Assembly: GCA_017431345.1 (NCBI GenBank) | Contig: JAFRLH010000050.1 | Location: 1-38,494 of the forward strand | Reading direction: 5' to 3' | Length of the DNA: 38,494 nt | Source of the DNA: Lachnospiraceae bacterium | Lineage (GTDB): Bacteria > Bacillota > Clostridia > Lachnospirales > Lachnospiraceae | Shown here: positions 9,561 through 20,458 of the stretch, piece after piece | How positions within the stretch are numbered: the first letter of the stretch is position 1 | Layout of the letters: every line of letters starts with the position of its first letter | Program-made: the position numbers and the translations under genes | Notes under the pieces: generated by a model | What the model saw: the letters and a program-made list of their open reading frames with translations, nothing else | Told to the model about the DNA's origin: nothing | Database searches by the model: none

Positions 9561-10924
9561 AGCTTTGGGGCGGACGGTTTAAAGGAAATACGGATGAACT
9601 TGCATTCTCCTTCAACGAATCGCTCTCCTTTGACAGGAGACTGTACAGAGAGGATATAGAGGGAAGCCTCGCGCATGTAAAAATGCTGGCAAAACAGGGG
9701 ATCCTGACGGAAGAGGAGAGAGACCGGATCGCGGACGGCCTTGTGTCGATCCGGGAAAGACTGGATTCCGGGGCGCTGCAGTTCGATGGGTCCCAGGAGG
9801 ATATCCACAGTTTTATAGAAGGAACGCTGACGGCGGAGATCGGCGAAGCCGGCAAGAAGCTCCATACCGGCCGCAGCCGGAATGACCAGGTCGCCGTGGA
9901 CATGAAACTTTATACCCGGAGGGAGACCGACGAGATCATCACGCTTACGACGAATCTGATCGATGTGATCCGTGCGCTGATGCAGGAGCATAAGGAAACT
10001 TATATGCCCGGCTTTACGCATCTGCAGAAAGCCCAGCCGGTCACGCTGGCACATCATCTCGGCGCTTATGAAGCGATGCTGCTGCGCGATGTCAGCAGAC
10101 TTACCGATACCAGAAAACGCATGAACGAGTGCCCGCTGGGAGCGGGAGCGCTCGCAGGCACCACTTATGACCTGGACAGAGAGTATACGGCTGCGCTTCT
10201 CGGGTTTGACAAAGCGACGGAGAACAGCATGGATTCCGTGTCTGACAGGGATTATATTATTGAACTGCTTTCGGATCTCTCGATCCTGATGATGCATCTT
10301 TCCAGATTCTCAGAGGAGATCATCCTGTGGAATTCGAATGAATACGGTTTCATCGAGCTCGACGACGCCTATTCGACCGGCAGTTCCATCATGCCGCAGA
10401 AAAAGAACCCGGATATTGCCGAGCTTGTCCGCGGAAAGACCGGCAGGATCTACGGGCATCTCATGCAGATCCTGACTACGATGAAAGGACTGCCGCTCGC
10501 TTACAACAAGGATATGCAGGAGGACAAGGAAGGCGCGTTTGACGCAATCGACAATGTGAAGCCCGCCCTGATCCTGTTCGCCGGCATGCTGTCCACGATG
10601 AGAGTAAATAAAGACGCCATGGCGAAGAGCGCTATGAACGGCTTTACCAATGCAACAGATGCCGCTGATTATCTGGTCAATCACGGAATTCCGTTCCGGG
10701 ACGCCCACGGGATCATCGGCGGACTGGTACTCACCTGTATTGAAAGAGGATGCTCGCTGCTCGATCTTTCCATGGAAGACTACAAGTCAGCATGCAGTGC
10801 ATTTGAGGAAGATATCTATGATGCGATCTCGCTTAAGACCTGTGTGAGCAAAAGGCTTACAAAAGGCGCGCCCGGAGAACTGATCGGGCGGCTGAAGCAG
10901 ACGGAAAGCGGAGGGGAAGGATAA
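9557..10924 (+). CDS. argH: Argininosuccinate lyase
   Basis: A 455-aa enzyme that splits argininosuccinate into arginine and fumarate, the last step of arginine synthesis. It opens with KLWGGRF, carries [15 protein letters not shown] in the middle and the fumarase/lyase superfamily signature [12 protein letters not shown] at 275-286, whose flexible loop holds the catalytic serine. Length is normal. GAGGAGGA directly upstream lies inside the end of the YfhO gene and the two overlap by 4 nt. The stop codon overlaps the next start by one base (TAATG at 10922-10926). No argG or other arginine gene is visible, so argH is separated from its pathway and embedded in an envelope-related run. Confidence 0.97.
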
Positions 10925-12033
10925 TGAAAAGAGCGGGGAAACGCTGTTTTTCCGGCTGTATGACCGCAGTCCTGCTGATCCTTATTTTTATGCAGGCTGT
11001 GCCGGTGCTTGCTGCTGAATCGCTCAGCAAAACAAAGCTTGTTCTTGCGGTAGGAAAGAAATACGATCTTGATGCTGATGGAGCAGCGGGAACGGTCGTC
11101 TGGTCGTCTTCCAATGAAAAGACGGCAGCGGTATCGGAAGCGGGAACGATCACTGCGCTTGCAGCGGGAAAGACTGTAATTTACGCAAAGACCGGAGAAA
11201 ATACACTGAAATGCAAAGTAACGGTCAGAAAGCCGGTAAAATCCGATAAAACGCTGAAAAAGAAATCCGGCAAGTGGAAAAAGCAGTACGGTGCAAAATA
11301 CTATCTGCTGAAGGACGGCTCCATGGCAGTCGGGGCCCGTCGTATCGGAGGGCAGTATTATGTGTTTGACGCCAACGGCGGGCTGCTGCAGCCGAAAAAG
11401 AATGCGATCGTGAAATCCGGCAGCCGCAGATACTATGTGACGCCCGAAGGAAAGGCAATCTCCGGGTGGAACATCATCAAAAAGAAGCTGTACAAGACAA
11501 CCAAACGAGGAAAGATCCTGACGGATAAAACGGTCGACGGGATCACGCTTACAAAAAACGGCAGCGCGAAGGACAGCACCAGCACTGTCTGGAAGAAAAA
11601 ATTCATAAAGACCGTAAACGCGATCACGAATGCGAAGATGACCAAGAGAGAGAAGCTGCGTGCCTGCTGGAATTATCTGGTCAGTCACAGGCATTTCAGA
11701 TATGCGCTCAAGTATCCGAAGCTTTCCGAAAAAGACTGGCAGAAGAAAACAGCTTATAATATGCTGGTCACAGGATCAGGGAACTGCTACAGCTTCGCCT
11801 GTGCCTTTGCGGCTATGGCAAACACGGTGGGATATAAATCCTATGTGGTCTGCGGAAGAGTATCCGGATCGAGAGACCACGCCAGAGACGGCCTTACCAG
11901 ACATGCGTGGGTCCGGATCAGCGGCCTGAATTATGATCCGGAAGGACAGTTCGCCGGATGGTACAGGGGATGCTACGGCGCATCCGGCTACCGGATCCGG
12001 CATACTGTGCAGAGGACCGTTAAATTCTGGTAA
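10924..12033 (+). CDS. Exported protein with Big2 Ig-like domain, repeats and transglutaminase-like domain
   Basis: A 369-aa exported protein. Residues 1-30 form a signal peptide with likely cleavage after VLA. A bacterial Ig-like (Big2) domain covers about 33-100, recognisable from VVWSSSNEKTAAVSEAGTIT. Lys/Tyr-rich repeats resembling wall- or glucan-binding modules span about 110-200. The C-terminal half is transglutaminase-like with an ordered triad: Cys288 (GSGNCYSFACA), His327 (RHAW) and Asp338 (NYDPEG). Such domains may cross-link, hydrolyse or bind peptides; the reaction is unknown. The ATG overlaps the argH stop by one base, so it is probably co-translated with argH. It is the only paralogue here with an Ig-like domain; the other three triad proteins lie 1.6-6 kb downstream, beyond serS. 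Domain calls are from motif recognition. Confidence 0.82.
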   Translation: MKRAGKRCFSGCMTAVLLILIFMQAVPVLAAESLSKTKLVLAVGKKYDLDADGAAGTVVWSSSNEKTAAVSEAGTITALAAGKTVIYAKTGENTLKCKVTVRKPVKSDKTLKKKSGKWKKQYGAKYYLLKDGSMAVGARRIGGQYYVFDANGGLLQPKKNAIVKSGSRRYYVTPEGKAISGWNIIKKKLYKTTKRGKILTDKTVDGITLTKNGSAKDSTSTVWKKKFIKTVNAITNAKMTKREKLRACWNYLVSHRHFRYALKYPKLSEKDWQKKTAYNMLVTGSGNCYSFACAFAAMANTVGYKSYVVCGRVSGSRDHARDGLTRHAWVRISGLNYDPEGQFAGWYRGCYGASGYRIRHTVQRTVKFW

Positions 12034-12065
12034 GAATACACCCGACCACAGTCAGCCGGGTATCC

Positions 12066-12094
12066 TTGCATATCAGGCTTTTGTGTGATATGGT
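12066..12094 (+). promoter_or_regulatory. Candidate extended -10 promoter for serS
   Basis: TTGCAT (12066-12071) lies 17 nt before TATGGT (12089-12094), which is preceded by TGA, an extended -10 (TGN) motif. The -35 match is weak (3/6). The 121-nt gap also holds a weak ATGCC/GGCAT hairpin but no T-box motif and no clear terminator for the gene before it. Confidence 0.4.
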
Positions 12095-12154
12095 TTTGTA
12101 AACCGATGCCCTGACCGGCATGACGCAATATAGAAAAGAGACGAAGGAGAAATC

Positions 12155-13444
12155 ATGTTAGACATTAAATTTGTCCGGGAAAATCCCGAACTCGTAAAAG
12201 AGAATATCCGGAAAAAATTCCAGGATGCCAAGCTTCCGCTTGTCGATGAAGTCATCGCACTGGACCGCGAGAACCGTGACATCAAAGGGGAAGTAGAGGC
12301 GTTAAGAGCGAACCGCAATAAGCTCAGCAAGCAGATCGGCGGTCTTATGAAGCAGGGAAAGAAGGACGAAGCCGAGGCTGTCAAGGCGCAGATCGCGAAG
12401 GATGCCGACAGGATCGATGCACTTTCCGCGAGGGAAAAGGAAGTAGAGGAAGAGATCAAACAGAGAATGATGCGTATTCCGCAGATGATCGATCCTTCCG
12501 TACCGATCGGCAAGGATGACTCCGAAAACGTGGAAGTAAAGCGTTACGGCGAGCCTGTCGTTCCGGAATATCCGATTCCCTATCACACAGAGATCATGGA
12601 AACCTTCCATGGCATCGATCTGGATGCTGCAAGAAGCGTTGCCGGAAACGGTTTCTATTATCTGATGGGAGATATCGCAAGGCTTCATTCTGCTGTTCTT
12701 GCCTATGCAAGGGATTTCATGATCGAACGCGGTTTCACCTATTGCGTACCGCCGTTCATGATCCGTTCGGATGTTGTGACGGGCGTCATGAGCTTTGCCG
12801 AGATGGACGCCATGATGTACAAGATCGAGGGAGAGGATCTCTATCTGATCGGCACCAGCGAACATTCCATGATCGGAAAATTCATCGATACGATGCACAG
12901 GGAGGAAGACCTTCCCTATACGCTCACGAGCTATTCTCCCTGCTTCCGCAAGGAAAAAGGCGCGCACGGCATCGAGGAGAGAGGTGTATACCGTATCCAC
13001 CAGTTCGAAAAGCAGGAAATGATCGTTGTCTGCAAGCCGGAGGAATCCCCTTACTGGTTCGACCAGCTCTGGCAGAATACGGTCGATCTGTTCCGTTCCA
13101 TGGATATCCCGGTGCGCACGCTGGAGTGCTGTTCCGGAGATCTGGCGGATCTGAAGGTAAAATCCGTAGACGTGGAAGCATGGTCTCCCCGTCAGCAGAA
13201 ATACTTCGAGGTCGGCAGCTGCTCGAATCTCGGAGATGCACAGGCAAGGCGGCTCCGCATCCGCGTAACGTCTCCGGAAGGCAGAAAATATTTTGCGCAT
13301 ACGCTGAACAATACTGTGGTCGCACCGCCCAGAATGCTGATCGCATTCCTGGAGAATCATCTGCAGGAAGACGGTTCCGTGACCATTCCCGAAGTCCTTC
13401 GTCCTTACATGGGCGGAAAGAGCGAACTCAGACCCGCGAAATAA
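12155..13444 (+). CDS. serS: Seryl-tRNA synthetase
   Basis: A 429-aa class II aminoacyl-tRNA synthetase that charges tRNA-Ser. The N-terminal tRNA-binding arm (about 27-100) is an antiparallel coiled coil rich in Lys/Glu, and the class II catalytic core follows. Motif 2 is visible as SPCFRKEKGAHG with RIHQFEKQEM after it. The motif 3 region contains NNTVVAPPRMLIAFLENH near the C-terminus. Length is typical for the family. ATG 12155 is preceded by GAAGGAGA. It stands as its own unit: a possible promoter at 12066 and a strong terminator at 13469-13495. No T-box leader was found, although clostridial serS genes often have one. Confidence 0.97.
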   Translation: MLDIKFVRENPELVKENIRKKFQDAKLPLVDEVIALDRENRDIKGEVEALRANRNKLSKQIGGLMKQGKKDEAEAVKAQIAKDADRIDALSAREKEVEEEIKQRMMRIPQMIDPSVPIGKDDSENVEVKRYGEPVVPEYPIPYHTEIMETFHGIDLDAARSVAGNGFYYLMGDIARLHSAVLAYARDFMIERGFTYCVPPFMIRSDVVTGVMSFAEMDAMMYKIEGEDLYLIGTSEHSMIGKFIDTMHREEDLPYTLTSYSPCFRKEKGAHGIEERGVYRIHQFEKQEMIVVCKPEESPYWFDQLWQNTVDLFRSMDIPVRTLECCSGDLADLKVKSVDVEAWSPRQQKYFEVGSCSNLGDAQARRLRIRVTSPEGRKYFAHTLNNTVVAPPRMLIAFLENHLQEDGSVTIPEVLRPYMGGKSELRPAK

Positions 13445-13468
13445 TAAAGATCATTCATACCGATACCA

Positions 13469-13495
13469 GGGACAGCCGGCAGGCTGTCCTTTTTT
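13469..13495 (+). terminator. Rho-independent terminator of serS
   Basis: A perfect 8-bp GC-rich stem, GGACAGCC (13470-13477) with GGCTGTCC (13482-13489), a 4-nt loop and a run of six T. It separates serS from the exported-protein operon. Confidence 0.93.
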
Positions 13496-13551
13496 GTCCT
13501 GCAGGCCGGGAAGGGGCGTGACAAATCTTCAGACACCGCATCCCGAATTTC

Positions 13552-13580
13552 TTGACACTTTACGGGACGGATTGTAAAAT
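13552..13580 (+). promoter_or_regulatory. Near-consensus promoter of the exported repeat-protein operon
   Basis: TTGACA (13552-13557), a 17-nt spacer and TAAAAT (13575-13580) match the sigma-A consensus at 6/6 and 5/6. A start near 13587 leaves a leader of about 52 nt before ATG 13639. The -35 TTG is in frame with the gene and can be mistaken for its start. This promoter probably serves the genes up to the terminator at 17809. Confidence 0.88.
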
Positions 13581-13638
13581 GAAAACTGCGGATTTCTGCG
13601 GGGATACTCCGTCGATCAGTACAGGAGGAGCTGGGACA

Positions 13639-14532
13639 ATGGGAAAGGCTATCAGGACGGGCTGTGTTTTGCTTATTCTCGCATGCATGATTTCCTGCCG
13701 GACCGGGCGGATCTATGCGTCCGGCGGTACTGCTGCGGAATCGGGCGTTTCTGAAGAAACGGCAGACAGCCGGGGCAGTCAGGAAGAAGGAAAGAAGAAT
13801 TGCTGGATCAAAGAGAACGGCAGGATCTACCGGATCGGGGAGAACGGAAAACGATACACAAAGACAGGGTTCCGGAAGATCGAAGGAAAAAAATATTATT
13901 TTAAGAAGGACCATTCCGCTGCCGTCGGCTATACGAAGATAAAAAAGAAGTATTATCTGTTCAGCAAAAAAGGCGTTCTTGTCACAAAAGACAGGAAAGT
14001 AGATGGCGTAAAGTATTACATCAAGGATAAAAAAACGGTAGAAGCATACAAATCCGGCGGGAAATATTATTATCCTTCCGGGAAGAAAATGTCGAAGCTG
14101 GACGCGTATGATTATGATACCTATCAGACTGCCAGAAAGATCGCTGCTGATATTACGACCCGGAAGATGAGCAAAGCCCAGAAACTGAAGAAGGTCTTCA
14201 AGTGGGTCATGAAGAAATCCTACATTACGAAAAGAAAATTTACCACAAAGCCCGGATGGATCCCGCTTTACGCAAATGACCATTTCCACGGAAAGGGCAG
14301 TACGTGCCAGGGAGACGCGGCGGCGTTTGCCTATCTTGCAAAGGCTGTAGGATACAAGAAAGTCTATGTCTGCATGGATTCGCCCAGACCCGGAGGGCAT
14401 GCATGGACAGAGATCGACGGAAAAGCTTATGATCCTCTTTTTGCACAGAACAGAGGATTCTACAAACATTACGCAATAGAATACGGAAAGGTGTTCAGAC
14501 TGAGACCGAAAGTACATATCAGGATATCCTGA
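13639..14532 (+). CDS. Exported repeat protein with transglutaminase-like domain
   Basis: A 297-aa exported protein. ATG 13639 has GGAGGAG at 13624-13630; the longer frame back to 13552 is rejected because it begins in the promoter. The signal sequence is hydrophobic at about 8-20 and probably cleaved near IYA at 25-27. Residues about 55-155 hold four to five degenerate units of the type GFRKIEGKKYYF. The C-terminal domain is transglutaminase-like with Cys223 (STCQGDAAAF), His254 (GGHAWTEIDG) and Asp265 (YDPLF), His and Asp being 11 apart. The protein is strongly basic. It is the first of five co-directional small exported genes. Substrate and reaction are unknown; wall association is inferred from the repeats. 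Confidence 0.82.
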   Translation: MGKAIRTGCVLLILACMISCRTGRIYASGGTAAESGVSEETADSRGSQEEGKKNCWIKENGRIYRIGENGKRYTKTGFRKIEGKKYYFKKDHSAAVGYTKIKKKYYLFSKKGVLVTKDRKVDGVKYYIKDKKTVEAYKSGGKYYYPSGKKMSKLDAYDYDTYQTARKIAADITTRKMSKAQKLKKVFKWVMKKSYITKRKFTTKPGWIPLYANDHFHGKGSTCQGDAAAFAYLAKAVGYKKVYVCMDSPRPGGHAWTEIDGKAYDPLFAQNRGFYKHYAIEYGKVFRLRPKVHIRIS

Positions 14533-14576
14533 CAATCTGACAACAGGATCTTACTATTGAGCGGAGGAGACTTTTC

Positions 14577-15506
14577 ATGAAAAAAGCTGCCGGAATACTT
14601 ATCACGATTGCTGCCGTACTTCTGATGGCCGTTTCAGCCGGCCCCGTATTTGCTGCCGAAACGGAAACGAATGTTTCTTCGGAGACCCCGGCGTATAAAA
14701 ACGAATGGGTAAAGAAGGGCGGCAAATACTATTACTATCAGAATAACGGTGAGAAGTACACGCAGACCGGTTTTAAAAAGATCGACGGCGAATATTACTA
14801 TTTTACCGGGGACGGATCGAGGATCAATAAGAAAGGCTTTCGGAAGATCGACGGGAAATATTATTATTTTCAGAAGAACGGGAAGGTCTATAAAAAAGCA
14901 GGGCTCAAAAAGATCAAAGGCGCGGTCTACTGCTTTACGAAGAAGCGGTATGTCGTTGCAGGTGCTGCCAAAAAGACGAAAGGCGTTCTCCATGTCTACG
15001 GCAAGACCGGGAAGATGCTGAAGAAAAAGCGCCTGTATACGCTGAACGGAAAATACTACCGGATCGACAGCAAAGGCAAGGCGGAAAAACTTTCGAAAGT
15101 GCAGGCTGAAGCCAGCAGGCTCACATGGGTGTTCATCAATAAATACACCAACAAAGGAGACAGCAATGCTGTCAAGTTCCGCAAGTGCTTCAACCGCATG
15201 GAATGCGCTAATTACAGACCCGGATACATAAGGCGAAGCGAGACGGACGGAAAAGACTGGCCGTATAAGATCGTGGTCAAAGTGCTCCGCAATAACAACC
15301 GTTGGACGCACAACTGCTACGGATTTGCGTGCACCATTGCATCCCTGGCAAGAGAACTCGGCTATAAACCGTATGTGTGCGTCCTGCAGCAGGATCACGC
15401 GGTCGTGCAGATCAACGGAAAGTATTATGACAATATGGGTGCAAGATTCGGCGCTTCAAGTCCTGCGATCAAAGGCTTTAAGATCCACAAGAAATATAAA
15501 TTCTGA
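14577..15506 (+). CDS. Exported YYF-repeat protein with transglutaminase-like domain
   Basis: A 309-aa exported protein. The signal peptide ends near VFA (24-26). About six tandem units of roughly 20-22 residues follow at 38-178; the best conserved read GFKKIDGEYYYF and GFRKIDGKYYYF, like glucan/wall-binding repeats but very Lys-rich and lacking the usual Trp. The C-terminal domain carries Cys247 (HNCYGFACTIASLA), His274 (QQDHAVVQING) and Asp285 (YYDNMG), again 11 residues between His and Asp. The typical HAW is HAV here. GGAGGAG precedes the ATG. A 44-nt gap separates it from the gene before, and only 12 nt from the gene after. It is a paralogue of its neighbours; function is unknown. Confidence 0.82.
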   Translation: MKKAAGILITIAAVLLMAVSAGPVFAAETETNVSSETPAYKNEWVKKGGKYYYYQNNGEKYTQTGFKKIDGEYYYFTGDGSRINKKGFRKIDGKYYYFQKNGKVYKKAGLKKIKGAVYCFTKKRYVVAGAAKKTKGVLHVYGKTGKMLKKKRLYTLNGKYYRIDSKGKAEKLSKVQAEASRLTWVFINKYTNKGDSNAVKFRKCFNRMECANYRPGYIRRSETDGKDWPYKIVVKVLRNNNRWTHNCYGFACTIASLARELGYKPYVCVLQQDHAVVQINGKYYDNMGARFGASSPAIKGFKIHKKYKF

Positions 15507-15518
15507 GGAGAGAAGAAT

Positions 15519-16298
15519 ATGAAGAACAAGCTTTTTATGCTGCTCATCATCGCGGTGCTGACCGCCTGTGCAGTTCCTGCAAAAGCCGTGAAAGAAAATG
15601 AAATGCCGGGCGCAGCATCTGCAGAAACAAAAGAAGGCTGGGATGACGGTCAGTACTATCTCAACGGGGAAAAACTGACTTCTGTCCTTCAGAAGATCGA
15701 CGGGAAATATTACTATTTCGAAAGTGACGGCAAGGCAGCGGTCAATAAGCTGAAGACTGTCAAGGGAAAGAAGTATTATTTCGGCAAGGATGGCGCTGCT
15801 GTTACAGAGCAGTTCAAAAAAGTGAAGGACGGGAAAAAGAAATATACTTTCTATTTCGGAAAGACCGGTGCAGCCTATACGGCCAAAAAAGATAAATACG
15901 CCATAACAATGAAGCCTTTTAAGATCGGCAAAAAGACATATGGTTTTGATGAGAAAGCGCATATGGTCACGGGACTCTGGGTAGTGAACGGCGCAAAAAA
16001 GGATAAAGTATATTCTTTTAAGAAGAAGACCGGCGTCTGCAATACGAAGGTCTCGAAGAAACTCACAAAACTCGCAAAGGCAGGCAAAAAATCCAAGACC
16101 ATGTACAAGGATGTGCTGAAGAAGTTCGGAAAGCCGAAAAAGATCCGCAAGTCGGACGGCTGCAACGCCTTTGCCGGCGGTAAGGAAAAGGATTACAAGG
16201 ACTACAACTTCCGGTATCCGCACCTGGAGGTCAGTATTTCCCAGTATACCAAAACCGGGGTTTACCGTATGAACGGCGTTTATACCTATGACGAGTAA
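15519..16298 (+). CDS. Exported YYF-repeat protein without the transglutaminase triad
   Basis: A 259-aa exported protein with the same repeat type as its neighbours. The N-terminus contains LTAC ending at Cys17, which fits a lipobox, but signal peptidase I cleavage after AKA is also possible. Repeat units of the KIDGKYYYF kind span about 45-165. The remaining 90 residues lack the Cys-His-Asp order. They contain DVLKKFGKPKKI and DGCNAF, loosely recalling the small BLIP/SmpA-type alpha-beta fold in which a G-K/E-P turn follows a helix; this is only a resemblance. GAGGAGAGAAG precedes the ATG. It lies between two triad-bearing paralogues, 12 and 11 nt away, so a partner, inhibitor or adaptor role is conceivable but unproven. 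Confidence 0.75.
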   Translation: MKNKLFMLLIIAVLTACAVPAKAVKENEMPGAASAETKEGWDDGQYYLNGEKLTSVLQKIDGKYYYFESDGKAAVNKLKTVKGKKYYFGKDGAAVTEQFKKVKDGKKKYTFYFGKTGAAYTAKKDKYAITMKPFKIGKKTYGFDEKAHMVTGLWVVNGAKKDKVYSFKKKTGVCNTKVSKKLTKLAKAGKKSKTMYKDVLKKFGKPKKIRKSDGCNAFAGGKEKDYKDYNFRYPHLEVSISQYTKTGVYRMNGVYTYDE

Positions 16299-16309
16299 AG
16301 GAGAGGACT

Positions 16310-17089
16310 ATGAAAAAAAGACTGACAGCGCTGCTGCTTGCGTTCTGCATGGCATTTTCCTTTGCGCCGGCTGCTTTTGCCAGTGACGGTGCGGACAGCA
16401 CGGCGGAAGAAACAAAAGAAGGCTGGGACGGTGATTCGTATTTTGTTGACGGGACCGCCGTAAACGGAATGCAGTCGATCGGCGGAAAAGACTATTATTT
16501 TGTAAAAGATAAAGTCGTGAAGAACCAGATCGTTTACAAAATCGGAAAAAAATATTATTCCATCAGCAAAGACGGCGTCCTGAAAAAATATACGGGCGTT
16601 AAAGAACAGGCGGCGGAAAGGCTGAGGGCGCTGAACAAGAAGAAAGACATTCCGGCACTGGATGCGAAGAAGACGGAAAAACTGTTCAAAAAAGCTTTTC
16701 TGTGGTGCGCCAAATCCTGTGTGAAAGGGAAGTATAAGGGCGTCGCGAAGACCGGCAATTATAAAAAATATGCAGTGGCCGGCTTCAACACACGCAAAGG
16801 GGACTGCAAGACACAGGCGTCCATGCTGGCAGTGATGGCCGGGATCCTCGGCTATAAGAAAGTGAAATTCGTGCACGGGCTCGTTCCCACAACAACCGGA
16901 TTCCGCACGCACGCGTGGATCACCCTTAAGAGCGGGAAAAAGAAATACGTCTGCGATCCCAGTTTTAACACTTCGACGGACGCAAAGAAGCTGAGGAAGA
17001 AAAACAAATATGTCGGGTTCATGTTCCGCTACGGGGATAAGAATACCTACAAATACTATACCGCAAAGAGGAAACTGATCAAAAAATAA
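16310..17089 (+). CDS. Short exported transglutaminase-like protein
   Basis: A 259-aa exported protein with a signal peptide ending near AFA (22-24). Only about two repeat-like units remain, at 39-90 (SIGGKDYYF, KIGKKYYSI), fewer than in its paralogues. The C-terminal domain has Cys166 (KGDCKTQASMLAVMAG), His201 (THAWITLKSG) and Asp216 (VCDPSF). The spacing from His to Asp is 15 rather than 11. The match to classical bacterial transglutaminase-like domains (GDC, HAW, DP) is the clearest of the four. AGGAGAGG precedes the ATG, 11 nt after the previous stop. It is part of the same operon, and a lipoprotein gene follows after 12 nt. Confidence 0.82.
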   Translation: MKKRLTALLLAFCMAFSFAPAAFASDGADSTAEETKEGWDGDSYFVDGTAVNGMQSIGGKDYYFVKDKVVKNQIVYKIGKKYYSISKDGVLKKYTGVKEQAAERLRALNKKKDIPALDAKKTEKLFKKAFLWCAKSCVKGKYKGVAKTGNYKKYAVAGFNTRKGDCKTQASMLAVMAGILGYKKVKFVHGLVPTTTGFRTHAWITLKSGKKKYVCDPSFNTSTDAKKLRKKNKYVGFMFRYGDKNTYKYYTAKRKLIKK

Positions 17090-17101
17090 AGGAAATTGAA
17101 A

Positions 17102-17779
17102 ATGAAAAAGACAAAAAACCTGATCATAGCAGTGCTGGCTCTCTCCCTGGTACTGGGAGGGTGCGGCGGCAGCGCAAATTCTGCACCGGAGACAACAGCG
17201 GCACAGACAACGGAAGCGGCTGTGACGGAAGCGCAGACGGAAGCAGCAGAGACAACAGCCGCAGCAGAAACGGAAGCTTCCTCTGAAGCGGAAACGGCAG
17301 CGGAGACGGAAACCGCAGCAGCAGAAACTGCGGCAGAAACAGAAACTGCCGCTGAGACCATGACGGAAGAATCAGCAGCAGAGGAAACAACAGTTCCTGC
17401 GGAAACAACGGCTGCTGCCGGCAAGACCATGTATTCCACATGGGGACTTGCCATGAGAAAGGACGCCAGCAAGGATTCTGAGAAAGTGGGCTCCATCCCG
17501 GTCAATTCCGAGCTTACCGTTTTTGATGCAAGCGGAGAATATTTTGAAGTCGAGTTTGACGGTGTGCACGGATATGCACTCGGAAAATATCTGACGGAAG
17601 ACCCCGAAGAAGCCAAAGCTGCTTATGAAGAATCTGTCGCACAGGAAAAGGCGGAAAAGAAGAGTTCCTCAGGGGGATCCTCTTCCAAGAAATCCTCCGG
17701 GAAATCAACCAAGAAGAAATCTTCGGATAAAAAGAAGAAAAAAGACAAGGAATGCCTGACCGGAGGTATCCTTAACTGA
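17102..17779 (+). CDS. SH3b-like lipoprotein with low-complexity linker
   Basis: A 225-aa lipoprotein. ATG 17102 is preferred over an in-frame TTG at 17096, because AAAGGA lies 8 nt before the ATG but only 2 nt before the TTG. The lipobox LGGC places the lipidated cysteine at 21. A long Ala/Thr/Glu linker (about 25-105) reaches across the wall, then an SH3-like domain at about 107-165 contains GLAMRKDASKDSEKVGSI and GYALGKYL. The tail is Ser/Lys-rich and ends KECLTGGILN with one isolated Cys. SH3b domains usually bind wall peptides or glycans. As the last gene of the operon it may anchor or sense on the outer membrane face; this is inference. Confidence 0.82.
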   Translation: MKKTKNLIIAVLALSLVLGGCGGSANSAPETTAAQTTEAAVTEAQTEAAETTAAAETEASSEAETAAETETAAAETAAETETAAETMTEESAAEETTVPAETTAAAGKTMYSTWGLAMRKDASKDSEKVGSIPVNSELTVFDASGEYFEVEFDGVHGYALGKYLTEDPEEAKAAYEESVAQEKAEKKSSSGGSSSKKSSGKSTKKKSSDKKKKKDKECLTGGILN

Positions 17780-17808
17780 TCCTGCAGATCATGATACGGT
17801 AATATACA

Positions 17809-17841
17809 GAAGGCCGTCACACATCAGGCGACGGCCTTCTT
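17809..17841 (+). terminator. Terminator of the exported-protein operon
   Basis: A perfect 10-bp stem, GAAGGCCGTC (17809-17818) with GACGGCCTTC (17830-17839), 11-nt loop, followed by a short T-rich stretch (TTACTGTAT). The T tract is weak, so termination may be partial and read into the O-acyltransferase pair. Confidence 0.7.
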
Positions 17842-17895
17842 ACTGTATACCGCCATACTGCCGCATTTATACTGAATGAACCCGGAGGGACCCAG

Positions 17896-19410
17896 ATGTC
17901 GCTTGTTTCCAATACCTTTCTGATATTCGTGCTTCTGGCACTGGTCGTTTACTATATTGTGCCGAAGCATTTTCAGTGGATCGTACTGCTGCTGTTCAGC
18001 TACGTATATTATATGTGGGGCGGGCCGAAGTATGTATTCTACATCCTTTTTTCGACCGCTGCAGTATATTTTTTCGGAAGGCTGATCACGCATCTGGAGG
18101 AAACGGGAGCATCGAAAAAGACACTGAAGCTGACAGTGGCGGCCGGCCTGATCGTGAATCTGGGGATGCTTGGAATTGTAAAATATTCCGCCCCGTTCAC
18201 CGCGCTTCTGAATTCGGTCACGGGAACACAGCATGCCGGGCTGAATCTGGTTTTTCCGCTCGGAATCTCGTTCTACACTTTCCAGTCTTCCGGATATCTG
18301 CTGGATGTGTACTGGGACAGAGTCAAGGCTGAGAAGAATATCTTTAAATTTGCACTGTTCGTATCCTTTTTCCCGCAGCTTCTGCAGGGTCCGATCGGAA
18401 AATTCGGGAAGCTGCATCACCAGTTCTTTGAGGAACACAGACCGGATGCGGAAAACTTCAAATACGGCATGTACCGGATCCTGACCGGCTTTGCGAAGAA
18501 GATGATCATTGCCGACTGGGCAGGTGTCTTCGCGGACGCGATCTGGGCCGACATGGATATGTACAACGGCATCGCGCTGTTCGGCCTTCTGTTCTACGGT
18601 ATCCAGCTCTACGCGGATTTCTCCGGCGCGATGGATGTGGTGATCGGTACGGCAAGGCTGTTCGGAATCGAGCTTGACGAGAACTTCCGGAGACCCTATC
18701 TGGCAACTTCCATGGCGGATTTCTGGAAAAGATGGCATATTACGCTGGGAGACTGGATGATGAACTATGTGTTCTATCCGATCTCGCTGTCAAAGTGGAT
18801 GATGGGCTTCGCGAAGCACACCAAGAAGATCTTCGGGAGAAGGATGGGACGCGTGATCCCGATCGCGCTCGCGGACATCATCGTGTTCTTCTTCGTGGGT
18901 ATCTGGCATGGCGCGAGCATGAAGTATGTCGTGTACGGATTCCTGAACGGCGGCATTATCGCTTTTTCCGAACTGCTGACTTATCAATACAGGGACTGGA
19001 AGAAGGCGCTGCACATTTCCGGCAGGGAAACATGGTGGCATGTGTTCATGATCGTACGGACCTTCATTATCGTGAACCTGCGGTGGTTCTTTGACCGTTC
19101 GGACACGCTTGGTGACGCAGCCTATATGATCAAATGCGCCTGCACCCATTTCGATCCCTCCCAGCTGTTTCAGATCCCGGCCGGCAGTGCGGGTACAGCA
19201 TTTGTTCCGTATGCACTGCTGATCATTGCGGTCGGGAGCATTATCATGGTGGTCCTGGGGACGATGCAGGAAATCGGGAAGGAACCCTATGAGAAGGTAA
19301 AGGCCATGCCTGCTGCCGGCGTTTTTGCAGTATATGCGGTGCTGTTCGTGCTGATCGGTTTCCTTGGATCGACAGCGGCACCGAGAGGATTCATCTATGC
19401 GCAGTTCTAA
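17896..19410 (+). CDS. MBOAT-family membrane O-acyltransferase (DltB/AlgI-like)
   Basis: A 504-aa polytopic membrane protein of the MBOAT family, which passes acyl groups across the membrane to extracellular polymers. About ten hydrophobic helices are visible. The two family histidines are present: His281 in KRWHITLGDW and the catalytic His338 in GIWHGAS. PLGISFYTFQSSGYLLDVY early in the protein is also typical of AlgI/PatA/DltB relatives. GGAGGG at 17884-17889 sets the ATG. Its last 14 nt overlap the start of a DltD/SGNH-like gene, the usual partner. No dltA or dltC is nearby, so O-acetylation of a wall or exopolysaccharide polymer is more likely than D-alanylation, but this is inference. 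Confidence 0.92.
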   Translation: MSLVSNTFLIFVLLALVVYYIVPKHFQWIVLLLFSYVYYMWGGPKYVFYILFSTAAVYFFGRLITHLEETGASKKTLKLTVAAGLIVNLGMLGIVKYSAPFTALLNSVTGTQHAGLNLVFPLGISFYTFQSSGYLLDVYWDRVKAEKNIFKFALFVSFFPQLLQGPIGKFGKLHHQFFEEHRPDAENFKYGMYRILTGFAKKMIIADWAGVFADAIWADMDMYNGIALFGLLFYGIQLYADFSGAMDVVIGTARLFGIELDENFRRPYLATSMADFWKRWHITLGDWMMNYVFYPISLSKWMMGFAKHTKKIFGRRMGRVIPIALADIIVFFFVGIWHGASMKYVVYGFLNGGIIAFSELLTYQYRDWKKALHISGRETWWHVFMIVRTFIIVNLRWFFDRSDTLGDAAYMIKCACTHFDPSQLFQIPAGSAGTAFVPYALLIIAVGSIIMVVLGTMQEIGKEPYEKVKAMPAAGVFAVYAVLFVLIGFLGSTAAPRGFIYAQF

Positions 19411-20458
19411 GATACTCTTAAAAACAGGAATAATGATCGCTGTGCTGGTGTGCATCCTGCTTCTGCTGGATTTCGCGCTCTATCCGTGCACGTTTATGAG
19501 AAATGATATCCATGCTGTGGCGAACAATACCTATGATGATGTCTATATGGGCACATCGCACGGCAAGATGAATATCGATCCGTCGGCGGTCCTTGCGGAT
19601 TCCGGAAGGACCGGGCATAACATCTGCGTGGGCGGAGAGTACAGCATCGATACTTACTACATGATCAGAATGATGGTGGAGCGCGGGCATAAGCCGGAGC
19701 GGATCGTCTATGAGCTGTCGCCCGGTTATTATGTGCGGGAAAAAGAAGAAGGCAATAATTATCTTCTCTTTTACCATGAGTTCCCGATGGGCAGGGCGAA
19801 GCTAGCGTATTTCGCAGATGCTGTCGCGAAATGCAATTTCAGAACGCTGTTCTTTCCGTGGTATGAGTACCAGCTTTCCTATGAGATGGAGCATCTGCAG
19901 GAAACGGTGCGCAAAAAGGTGAACCGGGATTACAGCGCAGATGGTTTCGCGACAGAGACACAGAAATATCATGAGGACGGTTTCATCGAGCGATATCCGG
20001 TGGATCCGGAGGAATTTGACTGGGATACGATGGAAGAGATTTACCCGGAGGATCTCGTACAGAAAAATATCGATTATCTGAAGAAGATCATCGAATACTG
20101 TCAGGAGCAGGGCATCGAATTTGTCTCGGTCGTAACGCCGATGCAGGATGATGTGCTGGCAGAGTTTTCCGAAGGCTATGAAGCGCTGGATGCATACTTC
20201 GCGGAGCTGATGGCGGAATATGATGTGCCGTATATCAACTTCAATGAAGATCCGTACTACGGACTGACGGCGCATGATCCGGAATCCTTTACTGATCTGG
20301 ACGGGCATATGAACGGCGATGCGGCGAGGGAATTCTCGCTGACGCTGTCGCAGGTGCTGAACGGCAGCGGCGAGATCCCGGAGGAGGATGCGGAATCAGA
20401 GGAATATGAAGAGGACCCTGAGACGGAGGCGGAGGATGAACCGGAACTGCTGGGGTGA
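19397..20458 (+). CDS. DltD/SGNH-like exported partner of the MBOAT protein
   Basis: A 353-aa protein with one N-terminal membrane helix (about 8-28) and an extracellular domain. GTSHG at 52-56 places a candidate nucleophile Ser54 as in DltD and AlgJ/AlgX-type SGNH proteins, and TDLDGHMN near residue 300 supplies the Asp and His of the triad. The C-terminal 25 residues are almost entirely acidic. ATG 19397 is chosen because GAGAGGA lies at 19384-19390 and the protein then begins directly with its membrane anchor; the frame is open to a TTG at 19364. It overlaps the MBOAT gene by 14 nt, a strong sign of a functional pair that moves an acyl group to an envelope polymer. Confidence 0.85.
   Translation: MRSSKILLKTGIMIAVLVCILLLLDFALYPCTFMRNDIHAVANNTYDDVYMGTSHGKMNIDPSAVLADSGRTGHNICVGGEYSIDTYYMIRMMVERGHKPERIVYELSPGYYVREKEEGNNYLLFYHEFPMGRAKLAYFADAVAKCNFRTLFFPWYEYQLSYEMEHLQETVRKKVNRDYSADGFATETQKYHEDGFIERYPVDPEEFDWDTMEEIYPEDLVQKNIDYLKKIIEYCQEQGIEFVSVVTPMQDDVLAEFSEGYEALDAYFAELMAEYDVPYINFNEDPYYGLTAHDPESFTDLDGHMNGDAAREFSLTLSQVLNGSGEIPEEDAESEEYEEDPETEAEDEPELLG

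Follow-up and report, generated by a model that had tools for sequence, protein, structure and literature searches.

Exported transglutaminase-like repeat proteins encoded beside MBOAT and SGNH genes in Lachnospiraceae

The DNA examined here, hereafter called the window, is a 38,494-nucleotide contig (JAFRLH010000050.1) from a Lachnospiraceae bacterium and forms part of a 3.27 Mb draft genome of 94 contigs. It carries a cluster of genes for exported proteins in which repeats are combined with transglutaminase-like (TGL) domains, and these genes lie upstream of genes for an MBOAT acyltransferase and an SGNH/DltD-like protein. The coupling of TGL genes to such an acyl-transfer island recurs among relatives and is well supported.

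Genes and boundaries of the locus

Genes are named by their first nucleotide (Table 1). The preliminary description of this DNA had proposed a clustered family of exported, Lys-rich TGL proteins, and every open reading frame (ORF) that it named lies where it was placed. All six exported proteins have an N-terminal hydrophobic stretch and contain 11 to 21% Lys. The spacings given for the Cys-His-Asp order of 10924, 13639, 14577 and 16310 are exact (39, 31, 27 and 35 residues from Cys to His; 11, 11, 11 and 15 from His to Asp).

Genes 13639, 14577, 15519, 16310 and 17096 form a tight run 3′ of a site matching 11 of 12 promoter positions. This agrees with the proposed promoter-bounded operon of three TGL genes, a gene for a repeat protein lacking the triad, and an SH3b lipoprotein gene. 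Gene 10924 is separate from the operon, and one further gene intervenes. The operon was also said to be terminator-bounded. A terminator-like hairpin lies upstream (13468-13491). Downstream, the region 17780-17860 folds far better than shuffled sequences (z −4.6), but its T run is poor, and the terminator scan found no + strand site between the lipoprotein and MBOAT genes. The scan yielded 12 promoter-like and 17 terminator-like sites in total, compared to 5.9 and 8.8 in shuffles. Because these totals are only about twice those of the shuffles, single sites are weak evidence.

The complete order from 13639 through the lipoprotein and MBOAT genes to the SGNH gene is kept in two further genomes of the genus (G003 and G010); G005 and G008 keep part of it. 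The orthologue of 10924 adjoins the operon in G003 (L021) and is found beyond the SGNH gene in G005 (L024). A role as a defence system was considered and rejected, as none of eight window proteins was matched by any PADLOC model at E 0.01.

Table 1. Features of the window in the region of the TGL operon.
Feature	Position	Strand	Remarks
Exported protein with Big_2 domain, weak choline-binding repeats and TGL domain (10924 type)	10924..12033	+	Outside the operon
Promoter-like site TTGACA-17-TAAAAT	13552..13580	+	11/12 positions match
Exported protein with repeats and TGL domain (13639 type)	13639..14532	+	
Exported protein with choline-binding repeats and divergent TGL domain (14577 type)	14577..15506	+	No PF01841 match; no Trp after catalytic His
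Exported protein with choline-binding repeats and C-terminal C15X domain (about 16047-16295)	15519..16298	+	
Exported protein with repeat and TGL domain (16310 type)	16310..17089	+	
SH3b lipoprotein with conserved C-terminal tail	17096..17779	+	
Tail CLTGGILN plus stop codon	17753..17779	+	Sole match of the strict tail pattern in the window's genome
Terminator-like hairpin between lipoprotein and MBOAT genes	17808..17840	+	Poor T run; from folding versus shuffles; absent from terminator scan
MBOAT acyltransferase	17896..19410	+	PF03062, 69.6 bits (Pfam cut-off 27); ends in FIYAQF (19390-19407)
SGNH/DltD-like protein with N-terminal membrane segment, GTS and DLDGH blocks	19397..20458	+	From motifs; Pfam PF13472 sub-threshold, 14.9 bits

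Linkage of TGL genes to MBOAT and SGNH genes

A prokaryotic genome collection was scanned with an alignment of six SGNH proteins, which yielded 56 loci (two of these, L112 and L113, are contigs of one assembly). Most of the records bear the names of uncultured Lachnospiraceae and other Clostridia, with Blautia, Mediterraneibacter and Ruminococcus among those represented, and many are metagenome assemblies with short contigs. An MBOAT gene is present in 54 of the 56 loci and a TGL gene in 46, within about 7-8 kb. Among the 27 loci flanked by at least 5 kb on both sides, 26 carry TGL genes. All six SGNH seeds originated in loci with linked TGL genes, and the fetched set includes five of the seed contigs themselves (L058, L059, L060, L064 and L086); without them, TGL genes are found in 41 of 51 loci overall and in 24 of 25 that are fully flanked. 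Nine of the ten loci lacking TGL genes have less than 3 kb of upstream sequence, and the tenth, L085, is complete.

TGL genes are densest 2-6 kb upstream of the SGNH gene, at 3.3-4.3 per 10 kb; the interval 2-6 kb downstream has 0.9-1.2, and beyond 6 kb the density drops to 0-0.34. The linkage survives rearrangement, with TGL genes of the 16310 type on either side of the SGNH gene (upstream in 32 cases, downstream in 9). We also counted neighbours in 61 whole genomes, using only listed matches, dropping second pieces of one MBOAT gene, and completing the TGL matches for the window's genome. In this count, of 156 listed PF01841 sites, 14 have at least one of the 140 listed MBOAT sites no more than 6 kb away, where at most 2.0 are expected. 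Thus, chance clustering of TGL and MBOAT genes is ruled out by the density fall-off and by this excess. Among the titles and abstract openings listed by a literature search whose coverage excluded bioRxiv and most subscription papers, we recognised no paper on TGL genes with MBOAT genes.

Of 56 MBOAT ORFs in these loci, 54 terminate in FIYAQF like that of the window. The motif FXYXXF is a published signature of MBOAT-SGNH transferases, among which PatA forms an acyl-Tyr intermediate at this site (PMC12148441). Both SGNH motif blocks are retained in 50 of 57 SGNH ORFs. We infer by homology that acyl groups may flow through the window's MBOAT/SGNH pair. One relative (L056 in G003, contig C4, 10590-17124) carries two tandem MBOAT and SGNH pairs whose MBOATs have identical profile scores and ends, which reflects either a duplication that is recent or an effect of the assembly.

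A second kind of MBOAT, paired with an AlgX-like protein, has repeat and TGL genes around it on another contig of the window's genome (C75) and in eight other genomes. These nine loci were chosen for a nearby TGL gene, and so they demonstrate recurrence rather than frequency. The AlgX Pfam match was confirmed for L027. The MBOATs of this type end in FIYFRF in seven cases, FIYFQF in one, and FIYAQF in one (L055), and an SH3b lipoprotein is sometimes encoded beside them.

Many SGNH-fetched loci also carry genes resembling those of the Dlt pathway. A carrier-protein-like gene of about 75 residues is present in 46 of the 56 loci and an adenylation (ligase) gene in 42, mostly after the SGNH gene; for the 27 fully flanked loci, the counts are 24 and 22. 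In L064, the ligase matches the AMP-binding family at 198 bits, and the carrier is sub-threshold (17.4 versus 20.8 bits). A relative's ligase resembles single adenylation proteins of nonribosomal peptide synthetases (NRPS; up to 232 bits) and DltA (204 bits) alike. A glycine-specific enzyme, suggested by linear gramicidin synthase as top match, was rejected because that score is the sum of two domains. The window's genome encodes a ligase on C27 that is 48% identical to that of L064, as well as a ligase-carrier-MBOAT-SGNH set on C37.

Six loci (L083, L084, L085, L090, L095 and L104) have a gene resembling PLP-dependent decarboxylases between the adenylation and carrier genes (checked with Pfam for L083), which may supply an unusual amino acid for the carrier. 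Separately, locus L122 of the window's genome (contig C89, 7650-14936) encodes an NRPS-like protein of 2428 residues with adenylation domains, with carrier-like and second adenylation genes nearby.

The exported TGL, C15X and Cys-tailed proteins

Of the four TGL proteins in the window, three exceed the Pfam cut-off of 23 bits for PF01841 (10924, 43.9 bits; 13639, 26.7; 16310, 24.9), whereas 14577 gives no match to this family up to E 1. Comparison of profiles built from 16 and 21 cores nevertheless ties the 14577 type to the 16310 type (hhalign probability 94.7, E 6e-8). The Cys-His-Asp order is kept in 95 of 97 TGL domains from the 56 loci and the window. The two exceptions are one domain with Ser-Gln-Asp and one with no residue in the Asp column. 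Judged on these alignments, the triad is beyond chance. The preliminary description had looked to relatives for both the triad and the gene order, and both are retained there. When types are assigned by best match, with some matches being weak, the 16310 type is the most constant (39 of 56 loci), and the 14577 type is present in 17.

The repeats are more uneven. Matches to choline-binding repeats exceed a Pfam cut-off in 14577 (PF01473) and in 15519 (PF01473 and PF19127), but in 10924, 13639 and 16310 they are below the cut-off or undetected. The 10924 protein has a Big_2 domain in addition to sub-threshold repeats. Therefore, the proposed combination of a TGL-type catalytic domain with wall-binding-type repeats stands for the catalytic part, through Pfam for three proteins, profile comparison for 14577 and the conserved triad; for the repeats, it has above-threshold matches in 14577 alone among the four. 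We infer from these resemblances that the proteins probably bind the wall through choline-binding-type repeats. Such repeats are also found on another likely wall enzyme of the window's genome, because locus L040 (contig C81, 5689-6642) encodes a polysaccharide deacetylase domain fused to them.

A search of the PDB with the 16310-type profile gave few matches, all insignificant: GdmF, which is an amide synthase (E 0.04), then a TGL protein (E 0.19) and arylamine N-acetyltransferase 1 (E 0.26). A Cys-His-Asp triad is chemically suited to carrying a cysteine thioester, as happens in amide synthases and arylamine N-acetyltransferases. These matches provide a weak lead that may point toward acyl chemistry.

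Gene 15519 had been viewed as encoding a repeat protein without the triad. Both features are confirmed, but the protein is not composed merely of repeats: it ends in a conserved domain, here called C15X. The loci examined contain 48 ORFs with this domain, some of which were retrieved twice. Every one has an [SAGT]-Cys pair, and the Cys is the sole invariant column in an alignment of 31 sequences. No Pfam or NCBIfam family fits it (best E 0.14 and 0.1). In the 61 whole genomes, a listed MBOAT is no more than 6 kb away from 16 of 24 C15X matches, the 14 best among them, compared to 0.4 expected, although the profile was built from MBOAT-linked members and may favour them. C15X is also fused to TGL domains in two orders: L062 and L064 have repeat-C15X-TGL, and L041 has repeat-TGL-C15X. 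A resemblance of C15X to beta-lactamase-inhibitor-like folds was considered but not adopted, with a single insignificant PDB match (E 0.34).

The SH3b lipoprotein encoded by 17096 terminates in CLTGGILN. A tail of this kind, counted with an expression chosen after inspecting tails, is present on one protein per locus in 45 of the 56 loci, with Cys at position -8 in 43 of the 45. It forms the last eight residues and follows a variable, often low-complexity linker. A less biased view is given by the SH3-domain proteins as a group, since 21 of 23 have Cys at -8. Besides these proteins, an unrelated exported type bears the tail in 23 of 24 cases, and 41 of the 45 tail proteins have an N-terminal hydrophobic stretch. 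Among 3404 ORFs of the 56 loci, only one additional ORF fits the expression, and it is antisense. Two loci (L075 and L096) encode a protein with five tandem copies of the tail motif upstream of the MBOAT gene.

A further 21 loci, 20 of them with an MBOAT gene, were examined and no tail was found. The complete but TGL-less locus L085 also lacks the tail and C15X; in the other 26 fully flanked loci, TGL and tail are present in all and C15X in 22. A strict DNA pattern for the tail matches once in the window's genome (control, 0). Among 299 family genomes, one per genus, it matches seven, at one site each, compared to 22 matches in 21 genomes for the reversed control. Because the control matches more often, the strict pattern alone is not specific at this scale. 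Tails with an ending other than Leu-Asn also escape it, so that real tails are undercounted. Two of the seven genomes are the window's and G012. Around the sites in the other five there is no tail ORF and no match to ten component profiles, and thus we treat them as chance matches.

Possible roles at the cell surface

The preliminary description regarded the TGL proteins as a set of surface enzymes that might act on wall peptides or host proteins. The operon it described is confirmed, but the neighbouring MBOAT and SGNH genes, C15X and the tail were overlooked, and jointly these point to acyl transfer instead of free-standing enzymes at the surface. We consider the chances about even that the TGL and repeat proteins form the extracellular arm of an acyl-transfer island for the envelope, with the TGL proteins acting as wall-anchored thiol acyl-transfer enzymes. 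An acyl group would be activated inside the cell (an amino acid where Dlt-like ligase and carrier genes are present) and handed over to MBOAT, which would attach it to Tyr within the FIYAQF at its own C-terminus and then pass it to the extracellular SGNH protein. The exported proteins would be held on the wall by their choline-binding-type repeats, and the TGL proteins among them might then shift acyl or peptide groups on acceptors bound to the wall, or take them off, by Cys-His-Asp chemistry. The Cys domain of 15519 and the Cys-containing lipoprotein tail may be dedicated partners or substrates of the TGL proteins. Although gene content, conservation, motifs, recurrent linkage and fusions are direct observations, what the TGL proteins catalyse, on which acceptor, and what the tail does in this model are guesses.

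Several findings weigh against an acyl-transfer role. Of the 140 listed MBOAT sites in the 61 genomes, 128 have no listed TGL within 6 kb (at least 6 of the 128 do have one by a custom profile), and so TGL genes accompany a subset of MBOAT loci rather than all. The complete locus L085 has MBOAT, SGNH, carrier and ligase genes but no TGL gene. Conversely, three loci of the window's genome (L026, L031 and L033) have TGL and repeat genes with no MBOAT in the stretch fetched, and thus TGL proteins do not need an adjacent MBOAT/SGNH pair. In the window itself, the hairpin downstream of the lipoprotein gene separates the operon from the MBOAT gene, and no carrier or ligase gene lies beside the SGNH gene. 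Such genes are likewise missing from the stretches fetched for all nine AlgX-type loci. Also, the core profile of the 14577 type retrieves from the PDB only two uninformatively named proteins (E 0.01) and a ribosomal protein (E 1.4). One of the loci without MBOAT, L026 (contig C75, 28938-30558), contains two neighbouring genes for exported repeat and TGL proteins; the examined stretch of 12 kb has no MBOAT.

Because no carrier or ligase gene was found in the stretches fetched at AlgX-type loci, what the loci have in common is probably not an amino acid, which weakens the idea that the amine of an amino-acid ester is the common acceptor for TGL proteins. The context that the exported parts do share, with or without a Dlt-like front end, is the MBOAT-SGNH pair. 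Therefore, TGL proteins would handle either groups delivered by this pair or a polymer modified by it.

The main rival, which we regard as possible but somewhat unlikely, is that the TGL proteins are peptidases or isopeptidases aimed by their repeats at wall peptides that they trim, with MBOAT and SGNH only modifying the polymer to which the repeats bind. The pseudomurein endoisopeptidases PeiW and PeiP of archaeal phages have a similar layout of N-terminal wall-binding repeats and a C-terminal Cys-His-Asp domain (PMC4592898). None of the six exported proteins has a Pfam match to the PeiW/PeiP family or its repeats up to E 1, and the part of that source available to us describes no MBOAT link. 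The stand-alone TGL and repeat genes in the window's genome favour such hydrolases, and multiple TGL types per locus would fit multiple wall bonds; the linkage of 16310-type TGL and C15X genes to MBOAT, as well as the Cys tail, would be left unexplained.

Two other explanations center on the tail. The TGL proteins might act like sortases and join the SH3b protein, or another protein with a CLxGG-type tail, to a wall acceptor. This would suit a motif that forms the last eight residues behind two unrelated upstream domains, occurs on one protein in each of 45 loci, and is repeated five times in tandem in L075 and L096, and it would also suit the concurrent lack of TGL, tail and C15X in L085, the sole TGL-less locus that is fully flanked. 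Yet a plain sorting signal needs no invariant Cys, and the nine AlgX-type loci carry TGL genes (seven with C15X) but no tail, which indicates that the tail follows the window-type pair and not TGL. A general sorting signal was rejected, given one tail protein per locus and a single strict match in the window's genome, and the narrower attachment idea seems quite improbable to us. Very unlikely, in our estimate, is that the tail Cys (and that of C15X) accepts the acyl group exported by MBOAT and SGNH, with TGL editing or moving the resulting thioester. The invariance of this residue in tail and C15X alike is in its favour, as is the restriction of the tail to window-type loci (45 of 56, versus 0 of 21 others). 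However, the MBOAT-SGNH pathways described in the accessible portion of PMC12148441 acylate envelope polymers, and C15X is also present where the tail is absent. A composite of these ideas can be stated as a Lachnospiraceae surface protein-modification system in which the exported protein with the Cys-containing octapeptide tail (CLx[GDN]G[LVI][LM]N, sometimes five times in tandem) would be the dedicated substrate of wall-anchored TGL enzymes and the C15X partner domain, covalently modified or tethered with an (amino)acyl group that arrives through a Dlt-like ligase-carrier-MBOAT-SGNH relay; we consider this speculative and unlikely.

Comparison with known systems helps to place the wall-anchored acyl-transfer proposal. 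The window shares with the MBOAT-SGNH acyltransferases PatA/PatB, DltB/DltD and AlgI/AlgX a C-terminal FXYXXF on MBOAT (PMC12148441) and an adjacent SGNH-like protein, whereas window-type loci add several exported TGL and repeat proteins, the C15X domain with its Cys and an exported protein with a Cys tail. Relatives resemble the D-alanylation pathway in having a DltA-like adenylation enzyme and a small carrier beside MBOAT and SGNH. Unlike in that pathway, the shuttle motif is fused to MBOAT here instead of residing on the separate microprotein DltX (PMC12148441), and in the window the ligase and carrier genes are not adjacent. The TGL proteins share with PF01841 members the Pfam match (three of four) and the order of catalytic residues, except that the 14577 type lacks the match. 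Likewise, 14577 and 15519 resemble choline-binding proteins (PF01473/PF19127) in repeats that the other three TGL proteins have below cut-off or not at all.

The presence of TGL, C15X and Cys-tail genes beside acylation genes suggests a single system, so far undescribed, for modifying the cell surface. Bacterial MBOAT-SGNH pairs are known to acylate polymers; if the proposal is true, acyl groups that cross the membrane would feed further thiol chemistry at the wall. This would give testable roles to several unnamed exported protein families of gut bacteria, and it could reveal a route other than sortase by which surface proteins are attached or modified.

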